Shown here piece after piece: positions 699-17,212 of a DNA stretch of 64,000 nt (the stretch's first letter is position 1; every line of letters starts with the position of its first letter). The DNA comes from Rubripirellula lacrimiformis (GTDB taxonomy: Bacteria > Planctomycetota > Planctomycetia > Pirellulales > Pirellulaceae). The DNA lies in contig NZ_CP036525.1 in NCBI RefSeq assembly GCF_007741535.1, forward strand, positions 1,984,001 to 2,048,000, in the 5' to 3' direction. The notes below the pieces were generated by a model. It searched no databases. It saw nothing but the letters and a program-made list of their open reading frames with translations, and had not been told where the DNA came from. The position numbers and the translations under genes are program-made.

Positions 699-1859
699 TT
701 AGCTGTATCGCATTTCTGCAAAAACGTCGTCCATGAAATTCAGCCATCCTGGCTGGTCTTCCACCCCATTCAATTCCAGATAGCGTGCCCTGTTAACGGT
801 GAACGAAAAAAGCGTCGATGGAAACCAAATGGAGAGTCCGTTCGCATTCGCGAGTTTTCTCGAGCGACGTAGCACTCGATTCTTGATGACTGCCTTGTTC
901 AGTGATTCGATCAGTCGCCGTGAGTATTTGCCAACGACCTTGCATTCGATCGCCTTGGAGAGATTTTCGGCAAAATGCACAGCGTCTACATACTCTGCGT
1001 TGGCAAAGGATTGCGATGACGCGCGTGCCATATCAATGGTGCGTATTGATTCTCTTTTCGTGCTGGCGTCCTGTGAGTCCAAATGGCTGGCGACTGCTTT
1101 TCCAAGTAGCGATAGAGATTTCATCGCTTCTCCTGTTCGTGTCAGTCGGATAGCTGACTGAGTAACATTCGTCATCCCGTGAAGCACGTAATGGTTGACG
1201 TATGAATCCACGATGTCGGAAGCGACATCGCAGACTTTTGGCTCATGCTTGAGATGCTCAAGCACTTTGTCGTATGGCCATCCCTCGCCAGGTTCAATCT
1301 GCTGTGATGCTACCAAGTAGTCAGCGAACTTAGAAAAGTGGTTGGCAATCTCAAGCATTCCCATCAAGCACGCATCAAAACCCAGTATCGCAATCTTTTT
1401 TTTGTGAAAGCCCACTCGCTCGAACACGTATTCGACTTCAGGCATATCGAGGGCTCCACCGAACTCGTCGATTGCGATCGCACGACGGCGTGATCGGAAA
1501 CCATCACCGTGTCCGCCGATGACCACTACCCGCTGGTCTGCTGGATAGCGATCGGTTCCCCAGGTCAAAAACTTCAGTAACGATTCCGGCTTTCCAGTGT
1601 CGGCCTCAGGCAACCGCTCAATCACATTTCTGTATGCAATTCCTTCCTCTTCTGGCTCCGTGATTTCGTACCGGATGGAGCCTGTGTGCTCACCTCTGGT
1701 GTCGATTTCGACGCCTACATAAACATCTGCTGATGCGCCAACTTTGCACAACTCAGCGATGTCACGAATCCCAGCATCACTTAGATCGTTATCGCCAGCC
1801 ATGAAAAGCAGAAGCGAATACCTCCGCTTTGCGCGTTTCTGTTTTGTGCGACTAGCCAC
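699..1859 (-). CDS. Clostripain-like cysteine peptidase (family C11)
   Basis: A 386-residue cytoplasmic-looking protein of the caspase-fold clan CD. The catalytic pair is visible: His117 in GGHGDG and Cys164 in FDACLMGMLE, the classic C11 signature. The fold begins near residue 13 (YSLLLFMAGDNDL), and the first 14 residues are strongly basic. C11 enzymes cut after Arg or Lys and are usually made as self-processing zymogens; whether this one self-processes cannot be seen. The start is GTG, with GAGG upstream, three bases after the stop of the S1 protease, so the two are probably co-translated. No signal peptide is visible, unlike secreted clostripain. Confidence 0.9.
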   Translation of the reverse strand: MASRTKQKRAKRRYSLLLFMAGDNDLSDAGIRDIAELCKVGASADVYVGVEIDTRGEHTGSIRYEITEPEEEGIAYRNVIERLPEADTGKPESLLKFLTWGTDRYPADQRVVVIGGHGDGFRSRRRAIAIDEFGGALDMPEVEYVFERVGFHKKKIAILGFDACLMGMLEIANHFSKFADYLVASQQIEPGEGWPYDKVLEHLKHEPKVCDVASDIVDSYVNHYVLHGMTNVTQSAIRLTRTGEAMKSLSLLGKAVASHLDSQDASTKRESIRTIDMARASSQSFANAEYVDAVHFAENLSKAIECKVVGKYSRRLIESLNKAVIKNRVLRRSRKLANANGLSIWFPSTLFSFTVNRARYLELNGVEDQPGWLNFMDDVFAEMRYS

Positions 1860-1862
1860 CGA

Positions 1863-2768
1863 CTACCTCATTTCCGCGATCGTTTCGTCAATCCAATCGC
1901 TGACGGAATCGACGCGAACATAGATGCCTCCGTCGCCGCAATTGTCGTTCGCTTCATCAGTCGCCCTTGATGTCGCCCCAGCAAGTTTTCGCTGACTGTC
2001 CACATGCACATATGCTGGACCTCCGCTGTCGCCGTTGCACGAGTCTTGCCCAGAACCCTTTCGACCCGCCACGAATTCTGTCATCGAATTGAAGCCAAGG
2101 GTTGATTCAGCGGCCGACAAGTTTTCCTGTGGAGTCTTTCTGACAACATTCATCGGCACGTTGACTTGTCGTTTGATTCCGAACCCCATTGAGCCCGCTG
2201 GGTTGTCGTTTCCGAATCCAACTAGTTCGATCCGACTCGCATTGGCGACTTCATCTGAAGTCGCCCTTGCAATCGGAGCCACCGTGGGCGCAGTTTGAAG
2301 AATCAGCAGCGCAATGTCTTCCGTCGGATGCTGCTTGATTCGCGAAATTCGCACAATGTTGGCTGGCTGCACATTGGATTCTTGCTCGACGCCAATTCCA
2401 ATCGAATTTGGGTCAAACCGACTGAAGATACAGTGGTCGGCTGTAATAACGAGTCGGGGATGAATGAGAGTACCAGTGCAGAACCACTCATTTAGAAACC
2501 CGCCAGCCGACGAGTTGCCAATGAGACAACATTCTGGAAATGCGCCAGGATCGACAGGGCGACCGCCAACTATTCGCTCAAGCTGATCTGCCATTCGACT
2601 TGCGCGACTCCGAGAGTCGTTGTCCGATGGGTCAGCGCGAAGGTGGTCGGAGAGTTGTTCAGACAGAAATCGAATTCGCTTGCTTAGCAATTCAATTTGT
2701 TCTCCTACATCGTGGCCTGTTGCACTGCGACCGCCGCAGTTGCAAGCACTCTTTTGATTCTTACGCAC
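1863..2768 (-). CDS. Trypsin-like serine protease (family S1) with N-terminal coiled coil
   Basis: A 301-residue protein with a complete chymotrypsin-fold triad: His112 (VITADHC), Asp151 (EDIALLIL) and Ser248 (GDSGGP). The mature-domain start IVGG lies at residues 66-69 after a ~64-residue N-terminal part that has paired Cys near residue 10 and a heptad-like helix (about residues 22-65). This resembles a zymogen, where cleavage after Arg65 would free the Ile N-terminus. The C11 enzyme next door has Arg/Lys specificity in its family and could do this; that is inference. The start is GTG behind a strong AGGAGG site. No export signal is visible. Confidence 0.9.
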   Translation of the reverse strand: MRKNQKSACNCGGRSATGHDVGEQIELLSKRIRFLSEQLSDHLRADPSDNDSRSRASRMADQLERIVGGRPVDPGAFPECCLIGNSSAGGFLNEWFCTGTLIHPRLVITADHCIFSRFDPNSIGIGVEQESNVQPANIVRISRIKQHPTEDIALLILQTAPTVAPIARATSDEVANASRIELVGFGNDNPAGSMGFGIKRQVNVPMNVVRKTPQENLSAAESTLGFNSMTEFVAGRKGSGQDSCNGDSGGPAYVHVDSQRKLAGATSRATDEANDNCGDGGIYVRVDSVSDWIDETIAEMR

Positions 2769-2818
2769 GGGAATACCTCCTGAGATTAGTGATTGTTTAG
2801 GATTATTCAGAGACGTGT

Positions 2819-3748
2819 TTAGTTGCCTTTTTGCACCGGGGGATCAGGCTGAACGTCTGGAGTTGGCACAGGATTCGGCACTGGCGTTGGAACGGGATTC
2901 CCTGGTGCGCCATAGAGTGCTCGCGCCCCCGCGATATCAAGCGGACTGAGGTCTCCATTGTTGTTGTACAGTGGGTTACAGTAGTTCATAATCGAATCAG
3001 GATCGTAGACAGTTATGAACCAATCTCCGTCACTGCCTTGTCGCTCTCGCTGACACCAAAGAGGTGCATCACTCCGATTTTGCTCGTGAGCAAAACTGAT
3101 GGCATGGCCAAATTCATGCACCGCGATGCTCTCGATCGAAGAACGTCGATTCGCTCCACCGCATGCTGGACACCAATTGCCGAAAGTAAAATTCAGCACC
3201 ATCCCATTTCGCATACCATCGAGACCTCTGCCCAACGCCTTTACATGAGGTCCATCATCAGCGATGAGAATCCGAATTCCCGTTGAGCTTGCCTGCGATT
3301 GTCCCCAGCCAGTGAACTTGAGTCCCGACTCAGCTTGCCATGTCCGCGTGATCGCATCCTGAACCCATTGGCGTTCCTGAGCATTCGCGGGTGAAGGATT
3401 CTCCCATGTCACTGGGATGGTCGCACTGGGCCAAATCGCACGGCGGAGCGGAAACGCACGGTCTTGTGCCCGATTGGAACCTGGGTCTCGAATTCGCTCA
3501 ACGAGTGAGATTTGGAGTCGCTGCATAGCGATCTTGAGACGCAAATTTTCCAGCTCTAGTTTTCTTGCTTTCGCAACGGCATCCGCGACAGCCGATTCTG
3601 CTGCCAGTCGTTCGATGGCAGGGTTATCGACTTGAGAATCGGAGCCATACGGAAGCGACCTGTCAGGTAGAGTTGCCTCCTGTGCGAACAATGGCACTCC
3701 CACTAGGCAGATCAAAACAAACAAACACCATTTTCGTGTATCGAGCAT
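2819..3748 (-). CDS. Secreted zinc metalloprotease (HExxHxxxxxH, matrixin/astacin-like)
   Basis: A 309-residue protein with a signal peptide (hydrophobic residues 8-22, likely cut after FAQ). Residues 45-85 form a probable coiled coil, and the catalytic domain spans about 100-275. The zinc site is His211-Glu212-His215-His221 in HEFGHAISFAH, followed by a Met-turn at SIMNYC (Met254), so it is a metzincin-type enzyme. The C-terminus is a proline/threonine linker (PVPTPVPNPVPTPDV) with no domain after it, so it may be a tail or a cell-surface spacer. The ATG has GGGAG upstream. It is the only protease of the trio with a clear export signal. Confidence 0.87.
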   Translation of the reverse strand: MLDTRKWCLFVLICLVGVPLFAQEATLPDRSLPYGSDSQVDNPAIERLAAESAVADAVAKARKLELENLRLKIAMQRLQISLVERIRDPGSNRAQDRAFPLRRAIWPSATIPVTWENPSPANAQERQWVQDAITRTWQAESGLKFTGWGQSQASSTGIRILIADDGPHVKALGRGLDGMRNGMVLNFTFGNWCPACGGANRRSSIESIAVHEFGHAISFAHEQNRSDAPLWCQRERQGSDGDWFITVYDPDSIMNYCNPLYNNNGDLSPLDIAGARALYGAPGNPVPTPVPNPVPTPDVQPDPPVQKGN

Positions 3749-3780: not shown

Positions 3781-5283
3781 CTACGGAATCGAAATATCGT
3801 GTGTTGCACCAAAGAACACTTCTGTTGCCGATTGCTCGGGTCGCAGCCCAGGCTGAGCAACTGCCCGCGATTCACCTCGAGTTGCACGATCCGTCGGCGG
3901 AAACAGTAACCGGACAACCTGTTTCATCGTGTCGACATCGAAACCTTGTTGTGGCTTAGCCCACGGCTGGTCGTGCTCGACCCAGTTTTCGCTTTGAAAC
4001 CACGGCAGGCCACCGATATCAACTTGCCGAACTTCGCCAGGGTGAGCTGCTTCGTGAGCCGCGAACCAATCTTCGATCCGGTCATCGACCCAGCCGTGCA
4101 GACGCCAGAAAACGGGATTCACGTGCGATGAGTAAAAGTCGCCAAGGTAATCGTTACTCGGATCAGCCCATCGGCTGTCGATATCGCCAATGCCACGACC
4201 AAGCGGAACCTTGGTTCCATCAGGCAGTCGTGGAACGGACGCCCATCGCATGTGCATGTCATTGTGAATGGAGAATTCGACCAACGCGCCGAGTTGTCCC
4301 AGAGTGAGCTTTGCAAGTCGTTCGGGATTCTTGAATTCACGATCCCACCACTGCATGCGCGACCAGTAGTATTCATCGCTTTTGAGTGCGTGAATGCGAC
4401 GCTCAAGGTTGACGACGCCGGGCCAGTGCCAAGCTGGCGGAACGACGAATCCGTCGGGATTGCCGGGCGCAGGATGCGACGGATTGCATTCTGCGAAATC
4501 TGGTTCAGCACGCACAGACCCCGGCTGTGGAGGGCTGGACCAATGTTGAATCGGATCTAACCCTGCGTGATGCATCATGTGCCTAACGTGTGAGATCATC
4601 TCCCGGTGCATGTACAGAAAGTCGATTCCTGAGCCGTTGTTGACGGCAATCTTCCCTGACTCCGTTCCTAGTCGCGGCGGTTCCCAATTCAGATCCCGAA
4701 TCTGCTGGCGCGTTTCATCCGAAACGTCAGGCGAGAGCCAAAACTGTCGTAGCGAATGCCACAGCAAATGATGCAACCGGTGCTTTTCACCCGCCAGCAT
4801 TCGGATCACCGAGTCGGGCAGCGGGATGACTTCTCTGGGCTCTGGAAATTCCTGGGCTACAGCAACGAACGATCCAACCACACCCGCTGGTGCTTTACCA
4901 TGCGGAATACTGCGGATGACCGTTCCGACAATCGCGGGAACCTGGTTAACTCCATCGGGCCATTCCGGCGCAAAATATCCTATGTAATCGTAGACCCAAC
5001 CCTCAGCACTCGTGCCAGCGACCCCCGTTCCGCGGAGGCGAATCCGATGGGGTGTCCCGTGTTCGATTCTTCCAACCATCTCTAGCCGAGCATCATCGAC
5101 ATTCGGCGGATCACTGCGGAACGCCAGTTGCCCCAGAACATCATCGTGCCCGACCACTGGATCGAAAATCAATACGCCTTGTCCAAACAACAAGCGATCT
5201 TCAAGCGGCAACTTTGGGTCAACCTGTTCCTGCACGTTGTGAAAACTGCGGTAGATCCAGGTTCCCGTCAAAATGCTGCTCAT
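3781..5283 (-). CDS. PvdP-like tyrosinase (N-terminal beta-barrel plus type-3 copper domain)
   Basis: A 500-residue protein. Residues 1-145 look like a lipocalin/streptavidin-type beta barrel (GTWIYRSFHN, then alternating strands). Residues 165-440 are tyrosinase-like: His171, 172 or 176, His226 (FLYMHREM) and His235 for CuA; His340 and His344 (HNDMH) and His396 (NPVFWRLHGWVDD) for CuB. All six copper ligands can be placed. This two-domain layout is that of the pyoverdine maturation tyrosinase PvdP, but no siderophore genes are near. By family it would hydroxylate or oxidise phenols, perhaps tyrosine in a peptide. No signal peptide is visible, so its copper source and compartment are unclear. 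Confidence 0.78.
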   Translation of the reverse strand: MSSILTGTWIYRSFHNVQEQVDPKLPLEDRLLFGQGVLIFDPVVGHDDVLGQLAFRSDPPNVDDARLEMVGRIEHGTPHRIRLRGTGVAGTSAEGWVYDYIGYFAPEWPDGVNQVPAIVGTVIRSIPHGKAPAGVVGSFVAVAQEFPEPREVIPLPDSVIRMLAGEKHRLHHLLWHSLRQFWLSPDVSDETRQQIRDLNWEPPRLGTESGKIAVNNGSGIDFLYMHREMISHVRHMMHHAGLDPIQHWSSPPQPGSVRAEPDFAECNPSHPAPGNPDGFVVPPAWHWPGVVNLERRIHALKSDEYYWSRMQWWDREFKNPERLAKLTLGQLGALVEFSIHNDMHMRWASVPRLPDGTKVPLGRGIGDIDSRWADPSNDYLGDFYSSHVNPVFWRLHGWVDDRIEDWFAAHEAAHPGEVRQVDIGGLPWFQSENWVEHDQPWAKPQQGFDVDTMKQVVRLLFPPTDRATRGESRAVAQPGLRPEQSATEVFFGATHDISIP

Positions 5284-5392: not shown

Positions 5393-7897
5393 TCAGTAGC
5401 CAGCACCGATGTCGAGTTCCGATGGCAAGAGACGTAGCGTGTTGTAGTTTTCGATTTCGTCGGAAGTGAATTCTGCTTCGAGGGCTTCGAGTTGCGATTT
5501 CATTCGATCGTGGGCGTCTCGGTACTTTTGATTGACTTCGGGGTCTTTAAGATCCTCGAAGACGTTTTTGTAGTCAGTGGCTAGTAGCGTGTAACGAACT
5601 CGCGAAGTCGCCATCGCGACGCAAGCGAGTGAACGCCATTCGTCGACGCCGTAGGTGCCACCATCTTTGGGGACTTGTACTTTGTTGATGCGTGGATCGA
5701 GCGCTAAGCGGACGCCGGATGTTCCGTAGACTTCGTGGCGGATGATCAGATGATGCATCATGTCGGCAATGAACCTTGCTAGACCTGATCGTGTTTTTAG
5801 TTGGTCGAAACGATTGGGAAGCGGCTGAGCGTAAGTTGCTGCCAGATTGGCAAACAACACTTGCACGCACTCGTCGGATGCGACATTCGCATCGCTGGTG
5901 TAGACCGCTTCGACCAAGCTGGTCGCGTATTCCAGCCAGATCGCAGCGTATTGCTTTTCCCAAACCAGGCTTGATCTGGGTAGAACGTTCTCCAGGGCTT
6001 GGCCGTCGCGTCCTGCTAGCAGTACTTTCTCGCGGCGCTCGAAGTCTTCGTCTTCTGCCAGCTCGTATTCGCCAAATCGGTCGTTTAAGTGCCGCATCAA
6101 TGATGCGTTGGTCGTCGCGAATATCTGCGGAAAGACGGCGTTGTCTTCCAACAGGTTTTGGGTCGTTAGTTCTTCGGCTAGCTCATGGGCGAACAAATGC
6201 GGGTAAAGAGCGAGTCGGACGGGATGAAACCACTGCCGTTTGGCGTCGAACGAGTTGAACAACGCGACTTCGATCAGATTCAAGCCCATGTGGATTTCGA
6301 CGAGATGCTTTCCGCTGACGACATAGAAGTAGACGGTGGCCAGAATCATGTCCTCGGCATGGCGGAACCTCGCGTCAGTCGGATCAACAGACAATTCAAT
6401 ATCGGATTTCGGAGCCTGAACGTGAGTCAGTTTCAGGCAGTGATTGGCGTCGTCGATCTCGAAGTACGCGACTCCGCCATAAGACTCGTAGTCGGCTTTC
6501 GTCTCGTACTTTTCAAAGAACGACAGGTCCATCACAAAGGCTTGCTTACCATCTCGGATGATCGGCTGGATGAACGTGCCAGCGGTGCCGTATTCGACCA
6601 GGAAGGCTAAGAGCTGGCCTTGACTGTAAGCTTCGAGTACGGTTGGCGGCGTGGGCTGGAAACCTGGGCCGCGAACACCTGACTCAATTGAAAACCAGCC
6701 GAGTGTCGGGAGGTAGATGCGCTGAAGAAACTGCTTCGGCCAGTAGTTGCTACCGTCGCTCCACGGTTCCATTCTCGGTTTCAATCGCAGTGGCACGTCG
6801 ATGTTCGCGATTGGGAAGACACGATTGACCATGCTGGCCGCACCGAAAGCGAACTTCACTAACCTCGTGATCATTCCGAAGGCATGAACCTTCAACGTCA
6901 GTGCTTCATCCAGGCAAGGAACGCTGACTGGATGGGTCAAGTTGCGCGGATGGGCAATGTAGTAGGGGAGCAGCCCCAGCGGCTGAAGTTCGCTCTCACG
7001 TCCCGCGTATAGTTCGCCCAGACGCTCGGGTCTTGGAACACGCATCCCGCCTGCTATGAACAAATAGAAGTACGGCCAAGTCGCTCCGGAGATCATCGAA
7101 CGGAACATGGCCCAGGTTTGCGGAAGTAGATAGAAAGCCAGGGCCATCCCAGCCGGAATCGAGACGAGCAACCGCAGTCCAATTCCTATGATTCCCTGAT
7201 GAGCCTCGGCGGATGCATCAAACTCAGTCCGTAAACCGAAGTACAGCAAGGCAACGACAACCGTCGCAACGAGATGAAAGACCGTGCTTCGGCGTGGCGT
7301 TTGCGAACCGATGAAGGTTGTCGCGTAGAGCCCAATTGCTGCGACAGCGAGTGCAGTTCGCCCCCATACTCCTCCCTGCAATCCGCTGGACGCGAACATG
7401 AGTATCAGCAACGCGATCAATCCGACCGTCAGGGTTGCTGCGCCGATTTCTTGCGGACCTCGAAAGAGAAACAGAATAAGCAAAAAACCAGTGACGGTGC
7501 CAACCAAAGCCGTCACCCATCCTGAATGACCAAACGCACCGAGCGTCACCAGTCCGTAAGCCAGATAGACCGAGCCGAACACAAACGCAATGTTGCCGAG
7601 CCGAATGGTTTGAATGAAACGCCCCATGGCGGTTCCCAGCAATTGATAAGGTGCATTTCGGATCAGCAACCAAGTTTCGTAGAGGAACCCAATGCCACTT
7701 CCAAACGCGGTGAACCAAAACGGGGCGCCCACCCACAACGGCAAGTCAGGCAGATTGATGATCGCCAAAAGCGAAGCGACAAAGAACACCAGCAAGCTTC
7801 CAGCGGAAAACCAAGCGTCCTTCGTGTTGAAAGTCGGCGGCACCGGTAGCGTGAATTTTTCCGGCCCCGGCGGCGTGATATGGGTATTGGCTTGCAC
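5393..7897 (-). CDS. Multi-pass membrane protein fused to a lipoxygenase-like domain
   Basis: An 834-residue protein with a GTG start. Residues 30-285 hold about eight hydrophobic segments. Residues ~370-834 resemble a lipoxygenase: His531-x4-His536 (HLVEIH), then HPVRLALYPH (His558, His567), which matches the HPIYKLLTPH block of plant and bacterial enzymes. A later HLIIRHEVYG block (His716) lies where the third iron His and its neighbouring Asn occur; the Asn position holds Arg720. The C-terminus (LRLLPSEL...GAGY) echoes the family's end but lacks the terminal Ile that ligates iron. It may oxygenate membrane lipids with altered iron coordination, or be inactive. Fusion to a polytopic membrane domain is unusual. 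Confidence 0.72.
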   Translation of the reverse strand: MQANTHITPPGPEKFTLPVPPTFNTKDAWFSAGSLLVFFVASLLAIINLPDLPLWVGAPFWFTAFGSGIGFLYETWLLIRNAPYQLLGTAMGRFIQTIRLGNIAFVFGSVYLAYGLVTLGAFGHSGWVTALVGTVTGFLLILFLFRGPQEIGAATLTVGLIALLILMFASSGLQGGVWGRTALAVAAIGLYATTFIGSQTPRRSTVFHLVATVVVALLYFGLRTEFDASAEAHQGIIGIGLRLLVSIPAGMALAFYLLPQTWAMFRSMISGATWPYFYLFIAGGMRVPRPERLGELYAGRESELQPLGLLPYYIAHPRNLTHPVSVPCLDEALTLKVHAFGMITRLVKFAFGAASMVNRVFPIANIDVPLRLKPRMEPWSDGSNYWPKQFLQRIYLPTLGWFSIESGVRGPGFQPTPPTVLEAYSQGQLLAFLVEYGTAGTFIQPIIRDGKQAFVMDLSFFEKYETKADYESYGGVAYFEIDDANHCLKLTHVQAPKSDIELSVDPTDARFRHAEDMILATVYFYVVSGKHLVEIHMGLNLIEVALFNSFDAKRQWFHPVRLALYPHLFAHELAEELTTQNLLEDNAVFPQIFATTNASLMRHLNDRFGEYELAEDEDFERREKVLLAGRDGQALENVLPRSSLVWEKQYAAIWLEYATSLVEAVYTSDANVASDECVQVLFANLAATYAQPLPNRFDQLKTRSGLARFIADMMHHLIIRHEVYGTSGVRLALDPRINKVQVPKDGGTYGVDEWRSLACVAMATSRVRYTLLATDYKNVFEDLKDPEVNQKYRDAHDRMKSQLEALEAEFTSDEIENYNTLRLLPSELDIGAGY

Positions 7898-7915: not shown

Positions 7916-8614
7916 CTAAAGGTTCGCTTCAAAGAATTGAATCGTTTCGCGAAGCGATTGATCCCTGGCAGTGCTATTTCCCGAATCGCTGCCCAAGAAT
8001 CCGTGGACGGCCCCTGGGTGCTTCGTCATGGAAACAGTCGCCCGCTCGCGTACGAGCTGTGATTGAATCGGATTAGCGTTTTGCATGAGAGGAACAAGGG
8101 AATCACTTTCACCGTGGTGAATGTGAACTTTGAGCAGCCTGTTTGCATTGGTCCCAATGCCATCAACCTCAGGAAAAGTGAACGGTGAAAAATACTCCAC
8201 GAGCACGTCGACCGAGTCTCGTATGCGCAGACTCAAGAAACCACCTAGTGAAAATCCAAGAAGCCCGACTTTGGAAGAGTCAATGCCCGGAAGAGTCTTG
8301 CAGGCATCGACTGCGTCTCGCAGAACGATCGCCCACGATCCATGACGCAGCGGGATTTGAGGAAAGACAGTGAGCGACGAGTCGTGAGAAGTAGACGGAG
8401 ACTTTTGAAAGTAGTCCGGCGTCAGTGCAAGGATTCCAACAGCGGCGAGTGCCTTCGCATGACGCTCGATTTCTGGCTTCCATTTTGGAGCAAGTCCATC
8501 ACTGCCATAGGCAATGATCACGGCGCTGTCATACGTGGTTGCGGGTTCTTCAGCCGTCCAAGAGATATTCTCGGTTACTGTGCCTGTGCCAGTCGGAAAG
8601 GTCGTGGGGATCAT
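7916..8614 (-). CDS. Dienelactone-hydrolase-like alpha/beta hydrolase
   Basis: A 232-residue alpha/beta hydrolase. The nucleophile elbow is GFSLGG, the acid is probably Asp in HHGESDSLVP, and the base is His in GAVHGF near the C-terminus. True dienelactone hydrolases use Cys as nucleophile; here it is Ser, which points to a general esterase or lactonase. The ATG overlaps the stop of the flavoprotein gene by four bases (ATGA), so translation is coupled. In this cluster it could open a lactone or ester made by the oxidases, but no substrate can be read from the sequence. No signal peptide is visible. Confidence 0.82.
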   Translation of the reverse strand: MIPTTFPTGTGTVTENISWTAEEPATTYDSAVIIAYGSDGLAPKWKPEIERHAKALAAVGILALTPDYFQKSPSTSHDSSLTVFPQIPLRHGSWAIVLRDAVDACKTLPGIDSSKVGLLGFSLGGFLSLRIRDSVDVLVEYFSPFTFPEVDGIGTNANRLLKVHIHHGESDSLVPLMQNANPIQSQLVRERATVSMTKHPGAVHGFLGSDSGNSTARDQSLRETIQFFEANL

Positions 8615-9762
8615 GCTATGCCATTTTCAAAGGAGGACTTGATGGAGTGAAGATTTCTGCAATTTTTTGGCTCGGAATCAACGCTCGTCCGCCGTTGCCA
8701 AAAGACTTGATCCTCCCAGCGAGTTTCCCGCTGGTGTGTCAACCGACTTTGTTCGGTAGATTCGCGAGCGAGGCTGTGAATCAAGTCTCCAAAAAAACGA
8801 CTTGTCGCGAAATCACTGCGTTCTGATACGACGCTTTCCGCCGCAGCTATTCCCGTTTTGAGCGCGCGGATGATTCCGTTGCCAGAAAGAGGATCGAGCG
8901 AGATGGCAGCGTCGCCAATCGCTATCCACCCCTCTCCAGAACTTTCATCAAGCCAACTCGTGTTCGCATTCACAAGACGCAGGGGTTCCAGCAATGATGT
9001 TGCTTCGATGCGTTGGGATGTGTGTGGCAAACGGCGAACCAAGTGTCTCCACCAATCTGTTCGTTCGTTGACATGACGGGGAATCAAATCCGCGTCCGTT
9101 AAATACGCAACGACCAATTGATCGTTTGGAAGCCCCGCGGAGTACCACCAACCGCTCGGCGCTGACTCGATCAATAGTCGCGGGTCGTCGAGGTCACTTG
9201 TTCGCATATAGCCAACCAGCGCCATCAAACGATTTCCAGGAACTCGCGTCGCACCCAGCCGTGTCGCGATCGACGCCGACCGTCCCGTTGCATCAACGAG
9301 AATGTCCGCTTGATAGGATTTCGATCCAATTTGAACATTCCAAACAGTCCCAGATTTTGATACTCGCATCGGACCAGCGGGGCGATCGACGTGGCAGCCT
9401 CGACCGGCACATTCGCACAGCAGCATTCGATCGAAATGGGCGCGATCGAGATTCCAACCCTGTGAGAACGGTTGGAAAAGGAAACTTGATACTGCGGTTT
9501 TGTCGCTGCCCCATGCGGATACGATTCCAGACGTCGGTTCAAAGTCCTCACGCTTGAATTGATCCCACACGTCAAGTGTTTTCAGTAGCCCTTCGGCTTC
9601 TGGCAACAACGCTTCGCCCACGCGACTCGTGCTGAATGAGCTTCTTTCAAGAATTGTGGGTGTGCATCCGTTTTGCATCAGTCGCAGCGCCATCGCACAG
9701 CCCGCTGGACCGCCTCCCACAATCAATACGTCCGTCGGATCTCTCACACTTGTTTCGCCCAC
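8611..9762 (-). CDS. LodB-like FAD-dependent oxidoreductase
   Basis: A 383-residue flavoprotein of the halogenase/geranylgeranyl-reductase/PHBH superfamily. It has an FAD Rossmann motif (VGGGPAG, residues 15-21) and the second FAD motif GDAAISLDPLSGNGI near residue 290. The halogenase signature WxWxIP is not visible. It starts with GTG five bases after the LodA-like gene. LodB proteins are partner flavoproteins needed to build the cysteine tryptophylquinone cofactor of LodA by hydroxylating its Trp, and they are encoded beside lodA. I assign this role from family and adjacency. A substrate monooxygenase of a biosynthetic pathway remains possible. Confidence 0.82.
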   Translation of the reverse strand: MGETSVRDPTDVLIVGGGPAGCAMALRLMQNGCTPTILERSSFSTSRVGEALLPEAEGLLKTLDVWDQFKREDFEPTSGIVSAWGSDKTAVSSFLFQPFSQGWNLDRAHFDRMLLCECAGRGCHVDRPAGPMRVSKSGTVWNVQIGSKSYQADILVDATGRSASIATRLGATRVPGNRLMALVGYMRTSDLDDPRLLIESAPSGWWYSAGLPNDQLVVAYLTDADLIPRHVNERTDWWRHLVRRLPHTSQRIEATSLLEPLRLVNANTSWLDESSGEGWIAIGDAAISLDPLSGNGIIRALKTGIAAAESVVSERSDFATSRFFGDLIHSLARESTEQSRLTHQRETRWEDQVFWQRRTSVDSEPKNCRNLHSIKSSFENGIA

Positions 9763-9767
9763 GCTTC

Positions 9768-11342
9768 TTAAACCAAGAACATTCCATCTGGGTTACGTTC
9801 AGTCTCGATGTACTCTCCGTTGGACTGGGCCACGACGCCTAGTTCGTGCCATCGTTCAACCATGTCCTTATGGTTTGCGATCTTGTCCCGATCCCATTCC
9901 AATTGCGGCCCACCGGAAGCAACCAGAACTTCATCGGGTCGCTGAGCGGGCCACCAGCCGTTGCGGCACTTCAAGAAGTCTGCCTGCCAAGGCATGGCGT
10001 TGTCCTGAGTCAGGTAGCCCGCCGGACGATCATCGTTCGCGGATTCAGGACGCAGGCGAATCTCTACCGCGACGTTGCTGCTGTCCGCTTGATAGATGTC
10101 CGGACGAGTGGCAACGATGCGATTGACTTCGATGCCAGGGAAAAACGAACCGCCCGTGCAGTGTTCCAACGCGGCCTGGTCAAGTCCCCACGCCGTTACG
10201 TTGGAACTCAATGCAGGGATTCCGCTCCAATCTCCAACAAACAACCCGTCCTTCCACTGCTTCATCAGGAAGTACTGCAAGGGACGAAGTGTAAGCCCGA
10301 CTGGATTCACTTCGCCGTCTCCATTGAGCCTCGGCATGTTCCCGGTTGTGTTCGGATTGTCGGGGTCGCGAAGCTTGTGAAAGATCAGCTCCCGCAACGA
10401 CTGGTGTGGGTCATTTCCAGGCGTTGGTACAAACGACAAGTCATTGAAGGCTCGCAGCATCACATTGGCGTGCCCCATGTTCGCAACACGACTCACCCAA
10501 CCTTGCTGCGAGACGCGATGGAGGATCGGATAGATTTCGTTTGTGAACGATGGGCGGTAGGTGGAATCAAACGCTCCGCCCGAAAATAGGTTCGGGGCAA
10601 ACGAGAATTGACGAACCACCAAATCGAGCATCAGTTCATACAGCGTGACGATATTGCCCACACCGGGTGCGTAATCAGGCGGGCCAACGATAATCCATGC
10701 CTGCTCCGCTTGAACGGTTGTGCCATCGCTCAGCTGGATCGTTGCATTGATTGAACCGTCAGAAGTGTCGTCGTACCAAAAGCGATTGTTCGCAAAGTTC
10801 AATCCACCGCCAGCAGAGTAGCCGCCTTGCTCTCCGGGCTTGACGACGAAATTCGACGTGCCGAAACCGCCCGCCACAACGAGGTTGCCGCTACTTTCGG
10901 TCGAGGCGTGACCAAGCGGAACGACTTTACCGCGAAACTTCCCATCGTCGAACGCAACCGATTGCCCCGGCGCGCTGAGCGTCTTGGCCGACGGAGCGAT
11001 GACGAGTTCGCTTTCCGAGATACCTGGATTGCGAGGCGTGTTACCGCCACTGAGAATCACGTTGCCAGCCGCCTTGCGATTGGCGAGCTTCACCGTCCAA
11101 GAAATATTCTCAACTTCACTGTGCGACGTTGTGACTTCAAGCGGCTCGGCAGTCGGGTTGTCTGAGTCGTACTCAAACACTCGAAATCGAGCAGCCTGTC
11201 GTTTCAATCGCCCGTCGGCCTTGAACGCACCGCCGATGGGCGCTGGCTCGGTGCCGGGAATTTCAGGGCCAATGAACGTTTCCATGCTATTGCCAACACG
11301 AGCGACTCCAATAGCCGGATGAATGCGATAGGACTTCGCCAT
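9768..11342 (-). CDS. LodA/GoxA-like quinoprotein amino acid oxidase (CTQ family)
   Basis: A 524-residue protein that opens with the hallmark YRIHPAIGVARVGNS and FIGPEIPG. The cofactor-forming Cys is probably Cys395 (ALEHCTGGSFFPGIE), and the Trp partner lies in the conserved segment MPWQADF...WWPAQRPD (Trp452-Trp464). LodA makes lysine 6-semialdehyde and GoxA oxidises glycine; both release ammonia and hydrogen peroxide. The substrate cannot be told from sequence. LodA of Marinomonas is longer (over 700 residues), so this is a compact member. There is no signal peptide, although LodA is known to reach the medium. The peroxide it makes would feed the haloperoxidase two genes upstream. Confidence 0.9.
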   Translation of the reverse strand: MAKSYRIHPAIGVARVGNSMETFIGPEIPGTEPAPIGGAFKADGRLKRQAARFRVFEYDSDNPTAEPLEVTTSHSEVENISWTVKLANRKAAGNVILSGGNTPRNPGISESELVIAPSAKTLSAPGQSVAFDDGKFRGKVVPLGHASTESSGNLVVAGGFGTSNFVVKPGEQGGYSAGGGLNFANNRFWYDDTSDGSINATIQLSDGTTVQAEQAWIIVGPPDYAPGVGNIVTLYELMLDLVVRQFSFAPNLFSGGAFDSTYRPSFTNEIYPILHRVSQQGWVSRVANMGHANVMLRAFNDLSFVPTPGNDPHQSLRELIFHKLRDPDNPNTTGNMPRLNGDGEVNPVGLTLRPLQYFLMKQWKDGLFVGDWSGIPALSSNVTAWGLDQAALEHCTGGSFFPGIEVNRIVATRPDIYQADSSNVAVEIRLRPESANDDRPAGYLTQDNAMPWQADFLKCRNGWWPAQRPDEVLVASGGPQLEWDRDKIANHKDMVERWHELGVVAQSNGEYIETERNPDGMFLV

Positions 11343-11362: not shown

Positions 11363-14239
11363 TTAAACCTGTTGAACGCGGAAAATGTCGCCGCCGATTG
11401 AGACGAGATAAAGTTCGCCTTGTGCGTCTTCCCCAAAAGAGACGATCGAGTTGATCGCAGAATTGGCGTTTAATTCAGCCGTTCGTTCAACGTGATTGGA
11501 AACGCTAGAGCCGTCGTAGCGGAGGGACCAAATCCGATTGGAAAGAAAGTCTGCATAGAAGTAGGTGCCTTGCAGTCCCGCGATTGCCTCGCCGCGATAG
11601 ACGTATCCGCCAACGATCGAGCGCCCGTCACTGCGACCGTATTCGTGAATGGGATCGACGAGATTCGGCTGATCGGGATCAAGTCCCGTCAGGTTTGTGC
11701 CTTCGCGAATACGCCAACCGTAATTCTCGCCGCCACGGCTATTCGCGTTCTGGAAATTGAGTTCTTCGCGGGCTGACTGACCAACATCACCCATCCAAAG
11801 ATCGGCGGACAAACGGTCAAAGCTGCAACGCCATGGGTTACGCAAACCAAGTGACCAAATCTCTGCCCGTCCAGCACCACTTGCCGCAAATGGATTCGTG
11901 GGCGGTATGCCGTAGTTCATATCGGCGGCGGCCGGAAGATCGTCACGGTCAACGTCGACACGAAGCATCTTACCAAGCAATACGTTTGTTTCCTGAGCGT
12001 TGCCCATCGGATCGTTTGACGAACCTCCATCACCCATCGCGATGTATAGCAAGCCGTCGGCCGGACCGAACCCGATCCAACCTCCGTTGTGATTGGTGAA
12101 CGGTTGGTCGACGACCATTACGTTGTGCCGACTATTGGTGTCCGCAAGACCGCTGGACGCGGTGTATCGACGAATCGTTGTTCTGCCAACCGCGTCTGTA
12201 CAGTTCACAAAGAAGTGGCCGTTATCTTCATACTGTGGGTGAAACGCCAAGCCCAGCAAGCCTCGTTCTCCGTTGGTGCTCAGATCGTCAACTTGAATGA
12301 AGGTCTGAACAAGCTGTCCATTGGAAGCGTCTAGCACTTGAATCGCACCCGTCTTTTCGACGATATAAAGTCGATCGGGTTTACCAGGGGCGAAGGTGAC
12401 GAACAACGGCTGCGTCAATCCAGTTGCAAAACGATTTGCGACGATTCCAGCGGCACTGGGAACCACAGCGCCAGCTCGTGCGACTGCTGCCGGACGAGCC
12501 GCCGCTACGATTGCTGGGGCATTGCCGCCGACAGCGCCGGACGCAGCCAAGCTACGTATCCAACGATCAACGACTTGAATCTCGTCGTCCGAAAAATTCC
12601 CTGACATCACGCCCGTGGTGATTTGGATATAAAAACCACTTTGGCTCGGGCTTCCGGGGACTACCAACGGCTTGCCCACCGCAGGAGGACGTTTGGCATT
12701 GGTCGAAGTCAGGAAACTGACGATGGCATCATAGTTCTCAGCCGAGAACAGCTCGTTCAGGCTGCCGCCAGCCGGAATTTGCACACCGCTGTGCATGAAT
12801 TGAGCGATCCCTTGTTTCGATTTCAAAAGTTCCAAGAAGTCCGCCTTTGCCTTGGTGCCATCGCCGGGAGCTGGCGGTGGATCACTCGGATCATCGGGCG
12901 TCTGCGGTGGTGTAACCGTTTCGGAAAACTCAAGGGCGGATTCACGAATGGTATTTACAAAGTCTTCCAGGTTCGTTTGAAACGGAGGCACGCTGGTCGT
13001 TTGCGCAAGCAGATTATTGATAGCGTCGACGATTTCCACGTAGGTTCGCCACTGAGCGGACTGCGAATGCGGGAGCGCCAACGTGTAAGGCATTGCAAAC
13101 GGTGGCCCAGCCTTTCGTTCTCTGCCTTGCGTATCGGCCTGGGGAGGATCGTGTTGCGGTCGAGTCTGTAGAAATCCAATGACCTCACGCAGACCAGGGA
13201 ATTGCATCATGCCAAATGCCCAACCAATGACCGTCGTACGCGCCGTCGTTCCCTGTTCCAGAACCAGCGAATGTGCGATTCCGTGGAGCAGCAACCGATA
13301 TTGCAAATCGGCAATGTGCGCCCAGCGGCGACTCTCCGCATCGGTGATTCGTCCAGCTTCCATGTCCAAATCCTGGTGAGGCTGCTCGGACGTATTGGGA
13401 TTGGTCGGCATCGGACGACTTGGATTCCAAGTCGTTGTGGCCTCAAGTTCCTCGTAGATCGTACGGAATTTTTGGTAGTGCGATGTGACAGCCGTGTCGC
13501 CACCTTCGCCCTGCTCAGCGATCTCATTGGCCAGCGCCCTGGCCTCGCTTAGACTTGAGACGGGTCGGACAATTCGCTCACTGAAGCCTCTCCATTCAAT
13601 CGCGGTCGCTTGAAACGTGGTAGCGGATTCCGGATAGATATCGTCTTCCGTCAACGTAACCAGCAATGCATCAATTTTTTCAAAGAGGGATCCAACGCGG
13701 TTGATCGGCATCCCTCCTTGAGCCCCCGTCGCGCGGTCAATGATCGCCTGCAGCGGTGCATCTGCAACGATGTCAGGCATCTCAGCCACGACATACTTTG
13801 CCAACGAGTCGAGTGAGATCGGTTCGAGTTTGAAGTGAAACGGATAGAATAGGTCGCGAAACGGAAAGTCTTCACGTTCCAAATTCACAGGACCACCAAG
13901 CAGCAACAAAAGATTTTGCATCGAGATCAGGTGAGCCATCTCTTCGATCGCGATTTCAACGATCGCTCTCCGCCAGCCGCCCGCTTTCGCTTGTTCGGTC
14001 GGACTCGGCCCCGCAGTCGCATCAATCGAATAGGCGGCATAGAGATACTGCACGAGCAACGACTGTTCAATTTCGGCAGCGGTTTGCAGAAGAAAGATTG
14101 CTTCGTCTCTGGCAGTCAGCTCGCCGTCAACGACAAGGTCTTCCGTCGCATGCGTAACGGGAGTCACACCGTCAGCAGCAGCTCTTGCGACCGCCCGACC
14201 TCTTCGTTTGCGGAACGAAATGCGTGGACCTTTAAGCAT
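11363..14239 (-). CDS. Three-part fusion: ferritin-like (VioB-type), haem-less cytochrome-like and glucose/sorbosone dehydrogenase domains
   Basis: A 958-residue protein; I take the ATG at 14239 rather than the preceding TTG. After a basic N-terminus (RKRRGRAVAR), residues ~35-330 are a ferritin-like four-helix domain of the type found in VioB/RebD: EIEQSLLVQYLYAAYSI and EEMAHLISMQNLLLLLGG carry the metal-binding Glu and His. Residues ~470-580 look like a planctomycete cytochrome-c-type domain without CxxCH. Residues ~605-955 are a PQQ-type sugar dehydrogenase propeller (LTQPLFVTFAPG, GERGLLGLAFHPQY, NHNGG, MGDGGSSNDP, LGLRNPWRCSFD). By family, the domains would handle an oxidation at a di-iron site and an aldose oxidation. 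No signal peptide is visible, although sugar dehydrogenases are normally exported. Confidence 0.83.
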   Translation of the reverse strand: MLKGPRISFRKRRGRAVARAAADGVTPVTHATEDLVVDGELTARDEAIFLLQTAAEIEQSLLVQYLYAAYSIDATAGPSPTEQAKAGGWRRAIVEIAIEEMAHLISMQNLLLLLGGPVNLEREDFPFRDLFYPFHFKLEPISLDSLAKYVVAEMPDIVADAPLQAIIDRATGAQGGMPINRVGSLFEKIDALLVTLTEDDIYPESATTFQATAIEWRGFSERIVRPVSSLSEARALANEIAEQGEGGDTAVTSHYQKFRTIYEELEATTTWNPSRPMPTNPNTSEQPHQDLDMEAGRITDAESRRWAHIADLQYRLLLHGIAHSLVLEQGTTARTTVIGWAFGMMQFPGLREVIGFLQTRPQHDPPQADTQGRERKAGPPFAMPYTLALPHSQSAQWRTYVEIVDAINNLLAQTTSVPPFQTNLEDFVNTIRESALEFSETVTPPQTPDDPSDPPPAPGDGTKAKADFLELLKSKQGIAQFMHSGVQIPAGGSLNELFSAENYDAIVSFLTSTNAKRPPAVGKPLVVPGSPSQSGFYIQITTGVMSGNFSDDEIQVVDRWIRSLAASGAVGGNAPAIVAAARPAAVARAGAVVPSAAGIVANRFATGLTQPLFVTFAPGKPDRLYIVEKTGAIQVLDASNGQLVQTFIQVDDLSTNGERGLLGLAFHPQYEDNGHFFVNCTDAVGRTTIRRYTASSGLADTNSRHNVMVVDQPFTNHNGGWIGFGPADGLLYIAMGDGGSSNDPMGNAQETNVLLGKMLRVDVDRDDLPAAADMNYGIPPTNPFAASGAGRAEIWSLGLRNPWRCSFDRLSADLWMGDVGQSAREELNFQNANSRGGENYGWRIREGTNLTGLDPDQPNLVDPIHEYGRSDGRSIVGGYVYRGEAIAGLQGTYFYADFLSNRIWSLRYDGSSVSNHVERTAELNANSAINSIVSFGEDAQGELYLVSIGGDIFRVQQV

Positions 14240-14290
14240 CAATCTCTGCCAGTCGTGAAGGGGGAATTTTGTTCACTTGGTCGTTCAGCG

Positions 14291-16192
14291 TCAAACGACG
14301 GTCGATAGCGCCTTTGCGATGTCACACTCCGAGGCCTCAAGACACCGACCGCGTTTCAGCTCTGGCAGGTTCAGTTTCTTGCCGGCGAACTTGACTTGCC
14401 CTGAGTGAATTTCGATCGGCTTGCCGCCGAAACTGTTGAACTCGATGCAGTATTCCTCGGTGTAGGTCGCGCTCTTGCGATACAGCATGTCGATGGCGAC
14501 CCGCTGACCAAGCAAGACGCTTTGCGTGTAATCGCTGCGCCAATGGACGCCGGCCATGTTGCGACCGGTTGCGATGTTCGCGGCAAGTTTGTTCAGCTCA
14601 AGTTCGACGGTCATCTTGCCGCTGTGCGCGTCCATGCCTTGATACGGTACAAGGTGCCCGCCGTCGGCAGTTGATTCGACCGGTCCGATGAACTGAACGC
14701 TGCCATCGAAGAAGGATTTCAGCACGGTCACGCACGCACCGGCGACTGTTGCGTGCCCGGCTCCGTAGGATGGATGAGTCGGCGATCCTTCGGGATAAGC
14801 CATCGGCAGCAACGCATTTGGCTCAGGACGATGACCACGACCGCGGCGTTTTCCGCGAGAAGAAGTGAGCCGATCCAGCGCGCTACTGGCTCGCAGAATT
14901 CGCTCGACTTCGATGTCGAAATCTTCGTAAGGCACTGGCACTTCATCGACAATCGAGCGATGGACCAAAGCGGCATAAGCTTCGGGACGCAGTCGTAGAT
15001 GGGTCCATTTTTGTCGCCACACGGCTTTCAATGCCCGAGTCGCAACCTCGGTGACCTGAGAGAGAACCTGAGGACCGCCGAATGTGCCAAAACCGTCTTG
15101 ATCTGGGTATTTTGGTGCCCCGCGATTCGCTGACTTTAGGTATTCCTCGTGTTCGTGCGGCCGCTGATCCTGCCCGGTTCCCATCACGCTGCATCCGGGC
15201 CCGTAAGGATTGCCTGGATTACTCGGGTATCCACCGCCCAGCAAAATTAGAGCCGCATTGAGATAGGCCTCGTAGAGAGCGTCATAATGCACGTAGGTTG
15301 CCAGATCTCGCATCGTCGATAGATATCGTCGTTGAGACGGATCGTGTTGGCCCACCAAGTTTTGATTCGGATTTCTTCTTTCGCCGTCTTGGACGTGAAG
15401 CCATTCCGACCAATCCGTCATGTAGTCGACACCTGCTGCGGCATGAATGCATCGCTGTGGAATTCGCAACGTGCCATAAGGGATTTCGTGAAGTAAAAAC
15501 TGCGAAAGATAAGGGCCGACGTTCTCCGAAATTCCGGCATTTTTGTCAGCAAATCGCGCCAATTCGCCGCCACGGAATAGACTCTTCGATGTAACAGAAA
15601 GCGTCTCGAAGCCAGATGTCGTTGGATCTCCGTTAGGATCGTCACGGTTGACAAACAAAGGCAGAGTGCTGATCTCACCCGCGGCCGCGGCGACCATCGG
15701 ATGATCGTCCCACTGCGCGAACGGCACATCACGCAGTATCGCCATCCAGTACAGTTCGATCATCTCAGCCGCCTCTTCCTGGCTGTTCAAATCCGGCGGC
15801 GCGGGGATTTCGTAACAGCATGGATCGGTAACTTCGGTATCAAGTGACCAACCTGATTGCGGATTCACGAAACGGCGCAGCGAGTCACAAGTCTTGTTAC
15901 GCAGTTGAAATTTACGCTTCGCGGCTTGTCCAGGATCCGCGTTCAGCTTCTTGAGCTGATCTACCAGATTCTGAAACTGCGATGCATTCACTTCGCCAGT
16001 GGTCGGATCATGGTCAAGGCCCTTCGAGAATCTCGCTGTTGGGCTTTCCGCCGCAACAGTCAGTCTCGCGCCAAAAACGCTACGGCAGTCTTTCGCGGCA
16101 GTGGCAGTCTTTCGCTGCGTCGTTTTGGTCTTTCGTTTCGTCGATGCTTTCGGTTTTTGTGTTGACTTTCGCGCTGTCTTTTTCTTCGACAT
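14291..16192 (-). CDS. Vanadium-dependent haloperoxidase with lysine-rich N-terminal tail
   Basis: A 633-residue protein from the ATG at 16192; a longer TTG-start version lacks a ribosome site. The vanadate pocket of the PAP2/haloperoxidase fold is clear: Lys395...Arg402 (KWTHLRLRP), HPSYGAGH ending in His480, and Arg544...His550 (RNMAGVHWRSD). The Ser that bonds vanadate in SGH motifs is Ala here. The enzyme would use hydrogen peroxide and a halide to make hypohalous acid. Residues 2-40 are a Lys/Thr/Ala tail (KKKTARKSTQKPKASTKRK) like histone H1 tails, suggesting polyanion binding. No Sec or Tat signal is visible, whereas many haloperoxidases are exported. Confidence 0.87.
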   Translation of the reverse strand: MSKKKTARKSTQKPKASTKRKTKTTQRKTATAAKDCRSVFGARLTVAAESPTARFSKGLDHDPTTGEVNASQFQNLVDQLKKLNADPGQAAKRKFQLRNKTCDSLRRFVNPQSGWSLDTEVTDPCCYEIPAPPDLNSQEEAAEMIELYWMAILRDVPFAQWDDHPMVAAAAGEISTLPLFVNRDDPNGDPTTSGFETLSVTSKSLFRGGELARFADKNAGISENVGPYLSQFLLHEIPYGTLRIPQRCIHAAAGVDYMTDWSEWLHVQDGERRNPNQNLVGQHDPSQRRYLSTMRDLATYVHYDALYEAYLNAALILLGGGYPSNPGNPYGPGCSVMGTGQDQRPHEHEEYLKSANRGAPKYPDQDGFGTFGGPQVLSQVTEVATRALKAVWRQKWTHLRLRPEAYAALVHRSIVDEVPVPYEDFDIEVERILRASSALDRLTSSRGKRRGRGHRPEPNALLPMAYPEGSPTHPSYGAGHATVAGACVTVLKSFFDGSVQFIGPVESTADGGHLVPYQGMDAHSGKMTVELELNKLAANIATGRNMAGVHWRSDYTQSVLLGQRVAIDMLYRKSATYTEEYCIEFNSFGGKPIEIHSGQVKFAGKKLNLPELKRGRCLEASECDIAKALSTVV

Positions 16193-16324
16193 GACTAATT
16201 CCGCTGATTTGATTGCTCGACTTTGATTGCTCGACGTCAAAGATGAAGTGAGTTTCAAGGAGATTGTGACTCAGTCGTCTCGCCAATCTACGGAAGCAGA
16301 TAGGAACGACTAGAACGGGTTTTC

Positions 16325-17212
16325 TTAGTCTGCCGCGGCAACAACAGATGGCCGAGACAACTCCGTCGCATCCAGCCATTCTTCCGAGAATAGGCACCAG
16401 AAATCGCGAGCGAGATAGTTACAAACGAAGCTGGCAGGAAGCCATCCATACCCATTGTCTCCCCATTGCTTTCCCCATGAGCTGCGAATCAAGATCGCGT
16501 CTTGATCCGCACCAACGCGATTCAATTGGTATCCAACTGCGACAACAGATTGACCACCGCGCGGTGCGTCATGGGCTTTGCGAAAAAGAATGTCGGGACC
16601 ATCAGCCAATGACGAAGGCACAGAGAACCCGAACAAGACTGGAAAACCGGCCGCAAGGAAGGATTTCAACGCACGCCATGTCTCTTGACCACTACATCCA
16701 TCATCGACAATACGAAAATACCGAAGGGCCTTCGGGGCCGTTGCCAGCGAAAGCAGAAACGAGCTAGGTTCGGATCGAAAAGCTTCGATACTGTATGGCC
16801 AGTATTCTTCCGGCGGGACGCCAACCTGAGCAAGTACTTTCAAGGTGGTCCTCAAATCCGCGCCTGAATCAGCAATATCTCGCCCTGCTTTCGCAATTCT
16901 GTGTCGTGTAGCTTGATAAAGAAACAGGCGTGAGCCATCGTAGGTCCGTCCGGCAACACGCCGCTCAAAATACTCAACCGCAGACAAGACCGCGAACGCA
17001 GATGAAGCATTCAATGTTCGTTGGTCATCTACTGCCGTGAAATACTCTGTGTCGCAATCGCAGCGTAGATCAACTAGGTCGGGTTGTTCGGAGTCCAGCA
17101 TCTCCGGCAGGTCTAGAAGTAGACGCTGAACCTCAGGGTGTCGAAACGTGAAGTCGCGTCCATCGGGAAGGTCAGGTTGCCAACCCAATCCTCGCGGCAC
17201 AAATTTAGCCAT
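16325..17212 (-). CDS. Papain-fold (C1) protein without catalytic residues: likely pseudoprotease
   Basis: A 295-residue protein; ATG at 17212 chosen because MAKFVPRGLGWQPDLPDGRDF is the usual opening of bacterial C1 proteins, while the longest frame starts at a TTG. The fold signatures remain, but every catalytic position is changed: DQ...NASSAFA in place of DQ...GSCxAxA (Cys to Ser70), GGQSVVAVGY in place of GGHAVxxVGY (His to Gln221), and IRSSWGKQWGDNGYGW in place of the NSWG motif (Asn to Ser244). It is probably a binding or scaffold protein, not an enzyme. It is the first gene of the cluster, 132 bases upstream of the haloperoxidase, so it may be made in largest amount. Confidence 0.82.
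   Translation of the reverse strand: MAKFVPRGLGWQPDLPDGRDFTFRHPEVQRLLLDLPEMLDSEQPDLVDLRCDCDTEYFTAVDDQRTLNASSAFAVLSAVEYFERRVAGRTYDGSRLFLYQATRHRIAKAGRDIADSGADLRTTLKVLAQVGVPPEEYWPYSIEAFRSEPSSFLLSLATAPKALRYFRIVDDGCSGQETWRALKSFLAAGFPVLFGFSVPSSLADGPDILFRKAHDAPRGGQSVVAVGYQLNRVGADQDAILIRSSWGKQWGDNGYGWLPASFVCNYLARDFWCLFSEEWLDATELSRPSVVAAAD

Follow-up and report, generated by a model that had tools for sequence, protein, structure and literature searches.

LodA of Marinomonas mediterranea (marinocine) is an antimicrobial oxidase with a cysteine tryptophylquinone (CTQ) cofactor. It is encoded by lodAB together with a flavoprotein partner, releases peroxide as an antimicrobial and biofilm agent, and is co-regulated with the phenol oxidases tyrosinase and laccase by PpoS (PMC2855505). 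From amino acids, LodA-type enzymes generate H2O2 and ammonia, and maturation of their CTQ depends on LodB-type flavoproteins (PMC2855505, PMC7876137). Fungal and bacterial lodA loci can also contain a PF12902 ferritin-like gene beside those for LodA and a LodB-like protein (Campillo-Brocal 2015, PMC4417212). The same three components are found in a 64,000-nucleotide stretch of the Rubripirellula lacrimiformis genome, hereafter the window (G000:C1:1984001-2048000; genome of 8.54 Mb, single contig), within a run of about 15 adjacent genes (Table 1). This cluster and its relatives differ from lodAB, with which the portion of PMC2855505 covered here describes no haloperoxidase, DyP, haem peroxidase, proteases, 771-residue protein or lipoxygenase-like protein. 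They also differ from the loci of PMC4417212, for which the corresponding portion gives no peroxidase, tyrosinase or protease context but mentions catalase-domain and multicopper-oxidase-domain fusions.

While each enzyme belongs to a known family, no description of the whole gene assembly was found in the open-access literature. The assembly can be grouped with the CTQ oxidase loci that produce peroxide, as a variant of them, though there is a fair chance that it represents a new class of multi-enzyme island. With moderate confidence, it can be read as a modular, horizontally exchanged oxidative island with a peroxide-coupled oxidase and peroxidases, most likely serving antagonism or defence. 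A bolder and tentative version, possible but doubtful, is a widespread, undescribed class of conflict islands in which the CTQ enzyme, peroxidases of interchangeable superfamilies, ferritin-like and 771-type proteins, cysteine and trypsin-like proteases and a trypsin-nuclease would form one multi-enzyme agent. Such an agent, lacking signal peptides, would stay inside the cell until lysis frees it or would serve for self-killing, and might have spread by plasmids and patchwork exchange over Planctomycetota, Cyanobacteriota, Pseudomonadota and Actinomycetota.

Recurrence and Replacement of the Oxidase and the Peroxidase

The sequence-only reading had predicted that the neighbourhood would recur in other genomes, and it does so in three genera of Pirellulaceae, with further CTQ/peroxidase neighbourhoods on plasmids of Alphaproteobacteria and Cyanobacteria. 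Window-type LodA occurs in few of the 241 family genomes searched. The cluster is shared with Rhodopirellula baltica SH1 (G152) and a third genome, G206. All three keep one order for the dienelactone-hydrolase-family (DLH) gene, the membrane lipoxygenase-like protein, the tyrosinase, the 771-aa gene and DyP, with HYP240, a 240-aa protein, at the front. In G206, the HYP240/pseudo-papain part has shrunk to a fused remnant, and a ferritin-like/BNR-propeller protein is an extra gene in both R. baltica and G206.

The two ends of the presumed oxidase-peroxidase relay are less constant. In R. baltica, the position of the vanadium haloperoxidase (VHPO) is occupied by an animal-type haem peroxidase of 504 aa (PF03098, 81 bits), and no VHPO was matched in its genome; G206 retains a VHPO 84-85% identical to that of the window. 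The oxidase slot holds LodA and LodB in the window and R. baltica, whereas G206 has no ordinary LodA. Instead, the N-terminal part of LodA follows a ferritin-like domain in one protein of 1032 aa, and the C-terminal part, which bears the CTQ, stands alone as a protein of 257 aa, with a radical S-adenosylmethionine (SAM) protein between the latter and a LodB/QhpG-like flavoprotein. This radical SAM protein shares 48% identity with a protein of Bradyrhizobium for which QhpD is a match (TIGR03906, E 3.5e-100). In G206 as on plasmids, the cassette resembles quinohaemoprotein amine dehydrogenase (QHNDH, qhpABCDEFGR) in that a small CTQ-motif protein is accompanied by a QhpD-like radical SAM protein and a QhpG-like flavoprotein. 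However, the small protein corresponds to the C-terminal domain of LodA and not to the QhpC gamma subunit, and its partners are a LodA N-terminal protein and a ferritin-like domain. Other arrangements are a single 1641-aa protein with ferritin-like, GSDH and LodA domains (G073) and, in the distant planctomycete G311, the membrane protein (53% identity) with a flavin amine oxidase and a split CTQ cassette. A LodA scan of the wider genome contigs gave a single distant Chitinophaga LodA.

Split-cassette LodA_C-type proteins are also encoded on plasmids of Rhizobium, Bradyrhizobium, Mesorhizobium, Mycetohabitans, Novosphingobium, Microvirga, Embleya, Streptomyces and Nostoc. Within a 20-kb stretch on a Rhizobium sophoriradicis plasmid lie genes for a trypsin-nuclease, a trypsin, LodA_N, radical SAM, LodA_C-ferritin, a C25 protease, DyP, a 771-like protein and an animal haem peroxidase. 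The plasmid of Nostoc UHCC 0302 carries a vanadium-chloroperoxidase-like protein, a ferritin-like protein, radical SAM, LodA_C-ferritin, and LodB-like, 771-like and DyP proteins. Its chloroperoxidase-like protein is barely above the PAP2 cut-off and below those of VCPO_N and VCPO_2nd, the PSGHAT and R-x5-H motifs being recognised by eye. Three kinds of peroxidase stand beside CTQ genes: the algal-type VHPO (window, G206), the animal haem type (R. baltica, R. sophoriradicis) and the chloroperoxidase-like type (Nostoc); DyP is present in all five. A plasmid of Mesorhizobium onobrychidis (L078:7992-12649) has a PvdP-like tyrosinase adjoining an intact LodA and a LodB-type flavoprotein, and ordinary tyrosinases and a BNR propeller occur in R. 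leguminosarum and Mesorhizobium AR10, the latter also with a multicopper oxidase. The trypsin-nuclease label given to a Bradyrhizobium gene (L082) was discarded, as it reflects the trypsin domain alone.

Time and again a CTQ enzyme, its architecture varying, has a peroxidase of varying ancestry beside it, and retention of the pair by selection is the best explanation. The repeated analogous replacement is good, though indirect, evidence for joint selection of the oxidase and peroxidase functions, as the relay of the sequence-only reading predicts. Within the window genome, VHPO and LodA are each single-copy and 2.9 kb apart, a proximity expected for two random points with a frequency of ~7e-4. 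The exchange of vanadium for haem in one slot, and of LodA for a split CTQ/radical-SAM set in the other, is an unusual analogous replacement at both ends, and the locus provides a natural test case for an in-series design of quinoprotein oxidase and haloperoxidase, one of the genomes (R. baltica) being closed.

The comparison also exposes a recurrent family of LodA/QHNDH-like hybrids (L082:8359-13348, L083:8438-13700, L029:1301-7988, L033:6826-12502, L085:3797-9844). In these, LodA_N and LodA_C are separate or ferritin-fused, the CTQ motif is CxPWxxD[YF]RxCxCxYWA, and a QhpD-like radical SAM protein and a QhpG/LodB-like flavoprotein are present. The split hybrids apparently constitute an undescribed CTQ family.

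Probable Exchange of the Cluster in Pieces

Divergence from R. baltica is uneven along the cluster. The block containing the papain-fold pseudoprotease (pseudo-papain) and HYP240 (16347-18244) shows 87.9% DNA identity, with synonymous divergence (dS) of 0.16 and 0.50, respectively, while the remaining blocks show 66-80% and dS is >1.1 or saturated for most genes. The pseudo-papain is 93% identical in R. baltica, but this was rejected as a sign of strong constraint, since its dS of 0.16 indicates recent exchange instead. The ratio of non-synonymous to synonymous divergence (dN/dS) is 0.055-0.095 for core genes where estimable. Given this uneven divergence, the cluster was probably exchanged in pieces, and its lower GC content (54% vs 58% to its right) also fits.

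Such patchwork divergence might also be found at a loose hot spot, where degradative and redox genes are brought together by horizontal transfer without a common function. Genes of mobile elements also speak for it: a phage-type integrase gene lies upstream of the cluster on the plus strand (window 20574-21806), and a transposase-like gene of insertion-sequence type interrupts the 771-type gene of the G206 cluster (L028:4931-6094). However, a hot spot does not readily account for a gene order common to three genera despite near-saturated or saturated synonymous sites, for core-gene dN/dS of about 0.05-0.10, or for slot-wise replacement by analogues and the LodA fusion of G073. Co-location on plasmids likewise suggests non-random neighbours: of the 14 split-cassette loci retrieved, 6 have a 771-like gene close to LodA_C, and among 72,556 plasmids 0.01 shared 771-like/LodA_C records would be expected by chance, although this expectation ignores plasmid relatedness and size, which detracts from its value for the island reading. 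A mere hot spot is considered unlikely.

A Possible Peroxide Relay

The window LodA clearly exceeds the Pfam cut-offs for LodA_N (185.2 bits vs 26.3) and LodA_C (82.5 bits vs 25). Its CTQ pair C459/W464 and D455 align with C516/W581/D512 of LodA 3weu (alignment to 2ymw/3weu). The protein has 524 aa, with a spacing of 5 residues between the Cys and Trp of the CTQ, compared with 65 in Marinomonas LodA. The equivalog cut-offs for LodA/GoxA are not reached (NF038172, 200 of 600 bits; NF038173, 202 of 750 bits). Judged by these NCBIfam models, the protein is a predicted LodA/GoxA family member that does not qualify as lysine 6-oxidase or glycine oxidase proper.

VHPO matches red-algal bromoperoxidases of known structure. 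Of the seven vanadate-pocket residues of the Corallina enzyme it has six, together with the acid-base His (K398, R406, H478, G484, H485, R545 and H551 are kept). The second peroxidase, DyP, reaches 121 bits against a TIGR01413 cut-off of 100.5, and its GxxDG motif is present as GFRDG.

In the proposed mechanism, LodA, matured by LodB, would oxidise an amine or amino acid to yield H2O2. This would be consumed by peroxidases encoded by adjacent genes, VHPO and DyP in the window and the animal-type haem peroxidase in R. baltica, and halide, phenolic or protein targets would be oxidised at the site of peroxide production. Further oxidations could come from the tyrosinase, the membrane protein with its lipoxygenase-like domain and the ferritin-like/GSDH fusion, and the proteases and the nuclease may either be directed at the same target or take part in enzyme maturation. 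The target, and protein release by lysis or a non-classical route, are speculative. Three points favour antagonism or defence: the set is accompanied by proteases and a nuclease, an antimicrobial role of LodA is known, and the island occurs sporadically. The feeding of the haloperoxidase by the oxidase, as the sequence-only reading had it, gains support as a working model from the recurrence of CTQ/peroxidase neighbourhoods with swapped superfamilies, but the link is an association and not an exclusive one. In that reading the haloperoxidase would supply hypohalous acid for killing or for halogenating a product; the amino acid or lipid substrates that it gave to the other redox enzymes are a guess.

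Several observations weigh against the relay or the island as a whole. VHPO genes are often found without LodA, and LodA often without a nearby peroxidase (G321, G497, G327). In rhizobia and G311, what accompanies the CTQ cassette is not a peroxidase but a multicopper oxidase, a tyrosinase or a flavin amine oxidase. The split CTQ forms might be dehydrogenases that produce no peroxide, and H2O2 release by the window CTQ enzyme is a prediction. In VHPO, the vanadate-contacting S483 of the algal enzymes is Ala, although the vanadate-site residues are otherwise kept. The same replacement is found in six further planctomycete relatives checked, which argues for a clade trait and not for decay. Signal-like or transmembrane segments are seen only in the zincin (at its N-terminus) and in the membrane protein, a poor fit with secreted weapons; VHPO, unlike its algal counterparts, has a Lys/Arg-rich N-terminus and no signal peptide was seen in it. 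Finally, the core with the membrane lipoxygenase-like protein is limited to 3 of the 241 family genomes. In a published stress transcriptome of R. baltica (PMC2754498), nothing could be attributed to cluster genes.

Accessory Enzymes and Other Possible Functions

The ferritin-like/GSDH fusion comprises PF12902 and PF07995 in a single protein of 959 aa, joined by a linker that, in our own reading, appears to be a degenerate cytochrome-c-like segment. As to PQQ supply for the GSDH part, no PqqE was found above cut-off in the genome; this negative is weak, as the model gives signals below cut-off in all control genomes. The ferritin-like domain also matches VioB (TIGR04492, E 2.5e-13). This speaks for a biosynthetic role, in which LodA and the ferritin-like protein would act much as VioA and VioB do in imine coupling, and tyrosinase and haloperoxidase would tailor the product, a small molecule or peptide, by oxidation or halogenation. 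The G311 cluster, with its thiamine pyrophosphate (TPP), amine-oxidase and tyrosine-decarboxylase-like genes, would suit such a pathway, as would the nearest relative of the tyrosinase, the pyoverdine-maturing PvdP. Yet the VioB match covers one domain and is far under cut-off, no non-ribosomal peptide synthetase, polyketide synthase or transporter was identified among the cluster genes, and several proteases and a nuclease are difficult to place in a biosynthetic scheme, which makes this role improbable.

The tyrosinase shares the fold family of PvdP (6rrp/6eys, E 2e-66) and keeps the histidine blocks of that structure (H168, H172, H176, H226, H340, H344, H387 and H396). Unlike PvdP, it is under the NCBIfam equivalog cut-off (NF051454, 287.8 of 625 bits) and does not lie in a pyoverdine locus.

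Lysyl-oxidase-, tyrosinase-, peroxidase- and haloperoxidase-type enzymes all work on Tyr/Lys chemistry. The cluster could thus cross-link the cell's own surface or matrix proteins through allysine, dopaquinone, dityrosine or halogenated tyrosine, hardening the wall, holdfast or biofilm matrix, with the proteases trimming precursors. Pirellulaceae do attach to surfaces at some stages and possess a protein sacculus (PMC7293339, PMC2754498), and tyrosinase adjoins LodA in Mesorhizobium. A wall or holdfast role is nevertheless hard to reconcile with so sporadic a core, with the lack of signal peptides in nearly all enzymes and with the trypsin-nuclease fusion linked to the cluster; nor is there an obvious structural substrate protein among the cluster genes. 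Cross-linking is not very likely.

An antagonistic oxidative island, the preferred reading, accommodates the degradative enzymes. As the sequence-only reading had listed, three proteases and a pseudoprotease are present: the trypsin, C11 and zincin motifs are intact, and in the papain fold none of the three catalytic residues survives, Cys, His and Asn being Ser, Gln and Ser in the alignment to xylellain (3ois). An anti-phage assignment of the serine protease was rejected, PADLOC having given merely trypsin-domain similarity (LmuA, Avs1b). Two proteins with an effector-associated domain (EAD1), one with Trypsin_2, lie near the LodA fusion locus of G073 (L013:9151-12024), a hint of conflict-system context.

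The membrane protein has ~6-7 hydrophobic segments (residues 27-260) and is 84% identical in R. baltica, 80% in G206 and 53% in G311. Its earlier description as a lipoxygenase-like fusion survives only as a predicted remote relation. PF00305 gave no match in it up to E 10, nor did a PDB sequence search find a lipoxygenase; PF00305 was also without match in 99 relatives, and a plasmid search with the protein gave none. By contrast, a profile of four homologues aligned with three lipoxygenases, their sequences verified against the PDB, over 270 columns with an hhalign score of 36.4, against at most 22.6 in 60 column-shuffled controls of this comparison of hidden Markov models (HMM-HMM). The HxxxxH motif (H531-x4-H536) and the later His (H721) appear in order, but the Asn ligand is not conserved, and Tyr takes the place of Ile as the last residue. 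AlphaFold models of this protein and of the 771-aa protein are of low confidence (mean predicted local distance difference test values of 33.7 and 31.2).

The 771-aa protein, conserved beside DyP peroxidases and without known fold or function, has no Pfam match. Relatives of its C-terminal domain (about 340-740) occur in Rhizobium, Streptomyces, Nostoc and elsewhere, some of them next to DyP or CTQ genes and fused to nuclease or protease domains; one such fusion (L013:4943-9115) carries Trypsin_2, Exo_endo_phos and Endonuclease_NS.

Layout of the Cluster

The gene run starts at 18108 and extends leftwards beyond the window edge, with intergenic distances of -4 to 113 bp. The widest gaps follow HYP240 (113 bp, before the pseudo-papain) and the membrane lipoxygenase-like protein (109 bp, before the tyrosinase). 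All genes named in the sequence-only reading are present by family match and closely packed on the minus strand, although the extent of 699-17212 given there was too narrow: at the left end the run continues with the 771-aa, DyP and trypsin-nuclease genes, and HYP240 is added at the front.

Table 1. Genes of the cluster in order of transcription (window positions unless a locus is named).
Feature	Position	Strand	Evidence and remarks
HYP240, 240-aa protein, function unknown	17386..18108	-	first gene of run; 78% identity to R. baltica copy
Papain-fold pseudoprotease (pseudo-papain)	16325..17212	-	PF00112; alignment to xylellain 3ois
VHPO, red-algal bromoperoxidase type	14291..16192	-	match to algal structures, E 2e-79
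PF12902/VioB ferritin-like + degenerate cytochrome-c-like linker (putative) + GSDH beta-propeller	11363..14242	-	PF12902, PF07995
LodA/GoxA-family CTQ oxidase	9768..11342	-	PF17990 185 bits, PF18417 82.5 bits
LodB/GoxB-type flavoprotein (CTQ maturation)	8611..9762	-	NF038171 244 bits (below cut-off of 400); GGGPAG motif
DLH alpha/beta hydrolase	7916..8614	-	PF01738 58.8 bits
Membrane protein fused to remote lipoxygenase-like domain	5393..7897	-	profile comparison; homologues in R. baltica, G206, G311
PvdP-like type-3 copper tyrosinase	3781..5283	-	PDB 6rrp/6eys E 2e-66; NF051454 288 bits
Zincin metalloprotease	2819..3748	-	PF01400/PF00413 weak; HEFGHAISFAH
Trypsin-like serine protease	1863..2768	-	PF00089 91 bits; TADHC, GDSGG
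Clostripain-family (C11) cysteine protease	699..1859	-	PF03415 145 bits; GGHG, DACLM
771-aa conserved protein, start only within window	1..683	-	full gene L037:14368-16683, crosses window edge
DyP peroxidase	L037:12776-14335		outside window, same direction
Trypsin_2/Endonuclease_NS protein	L037:10407-12620		outside window, same direction

Scans for promoters and terminators found fewer sites than in shuffled sequence and are uninformative on operons. The gene starts at 16192 (VHPO) and 17212 (pseudo-papain) agree with homologues better than the longest-open-reading-frame starts do. HYP240 has no Pfam match even at E 10, and a second, distant copy of it lies elsewhere in the same genome.

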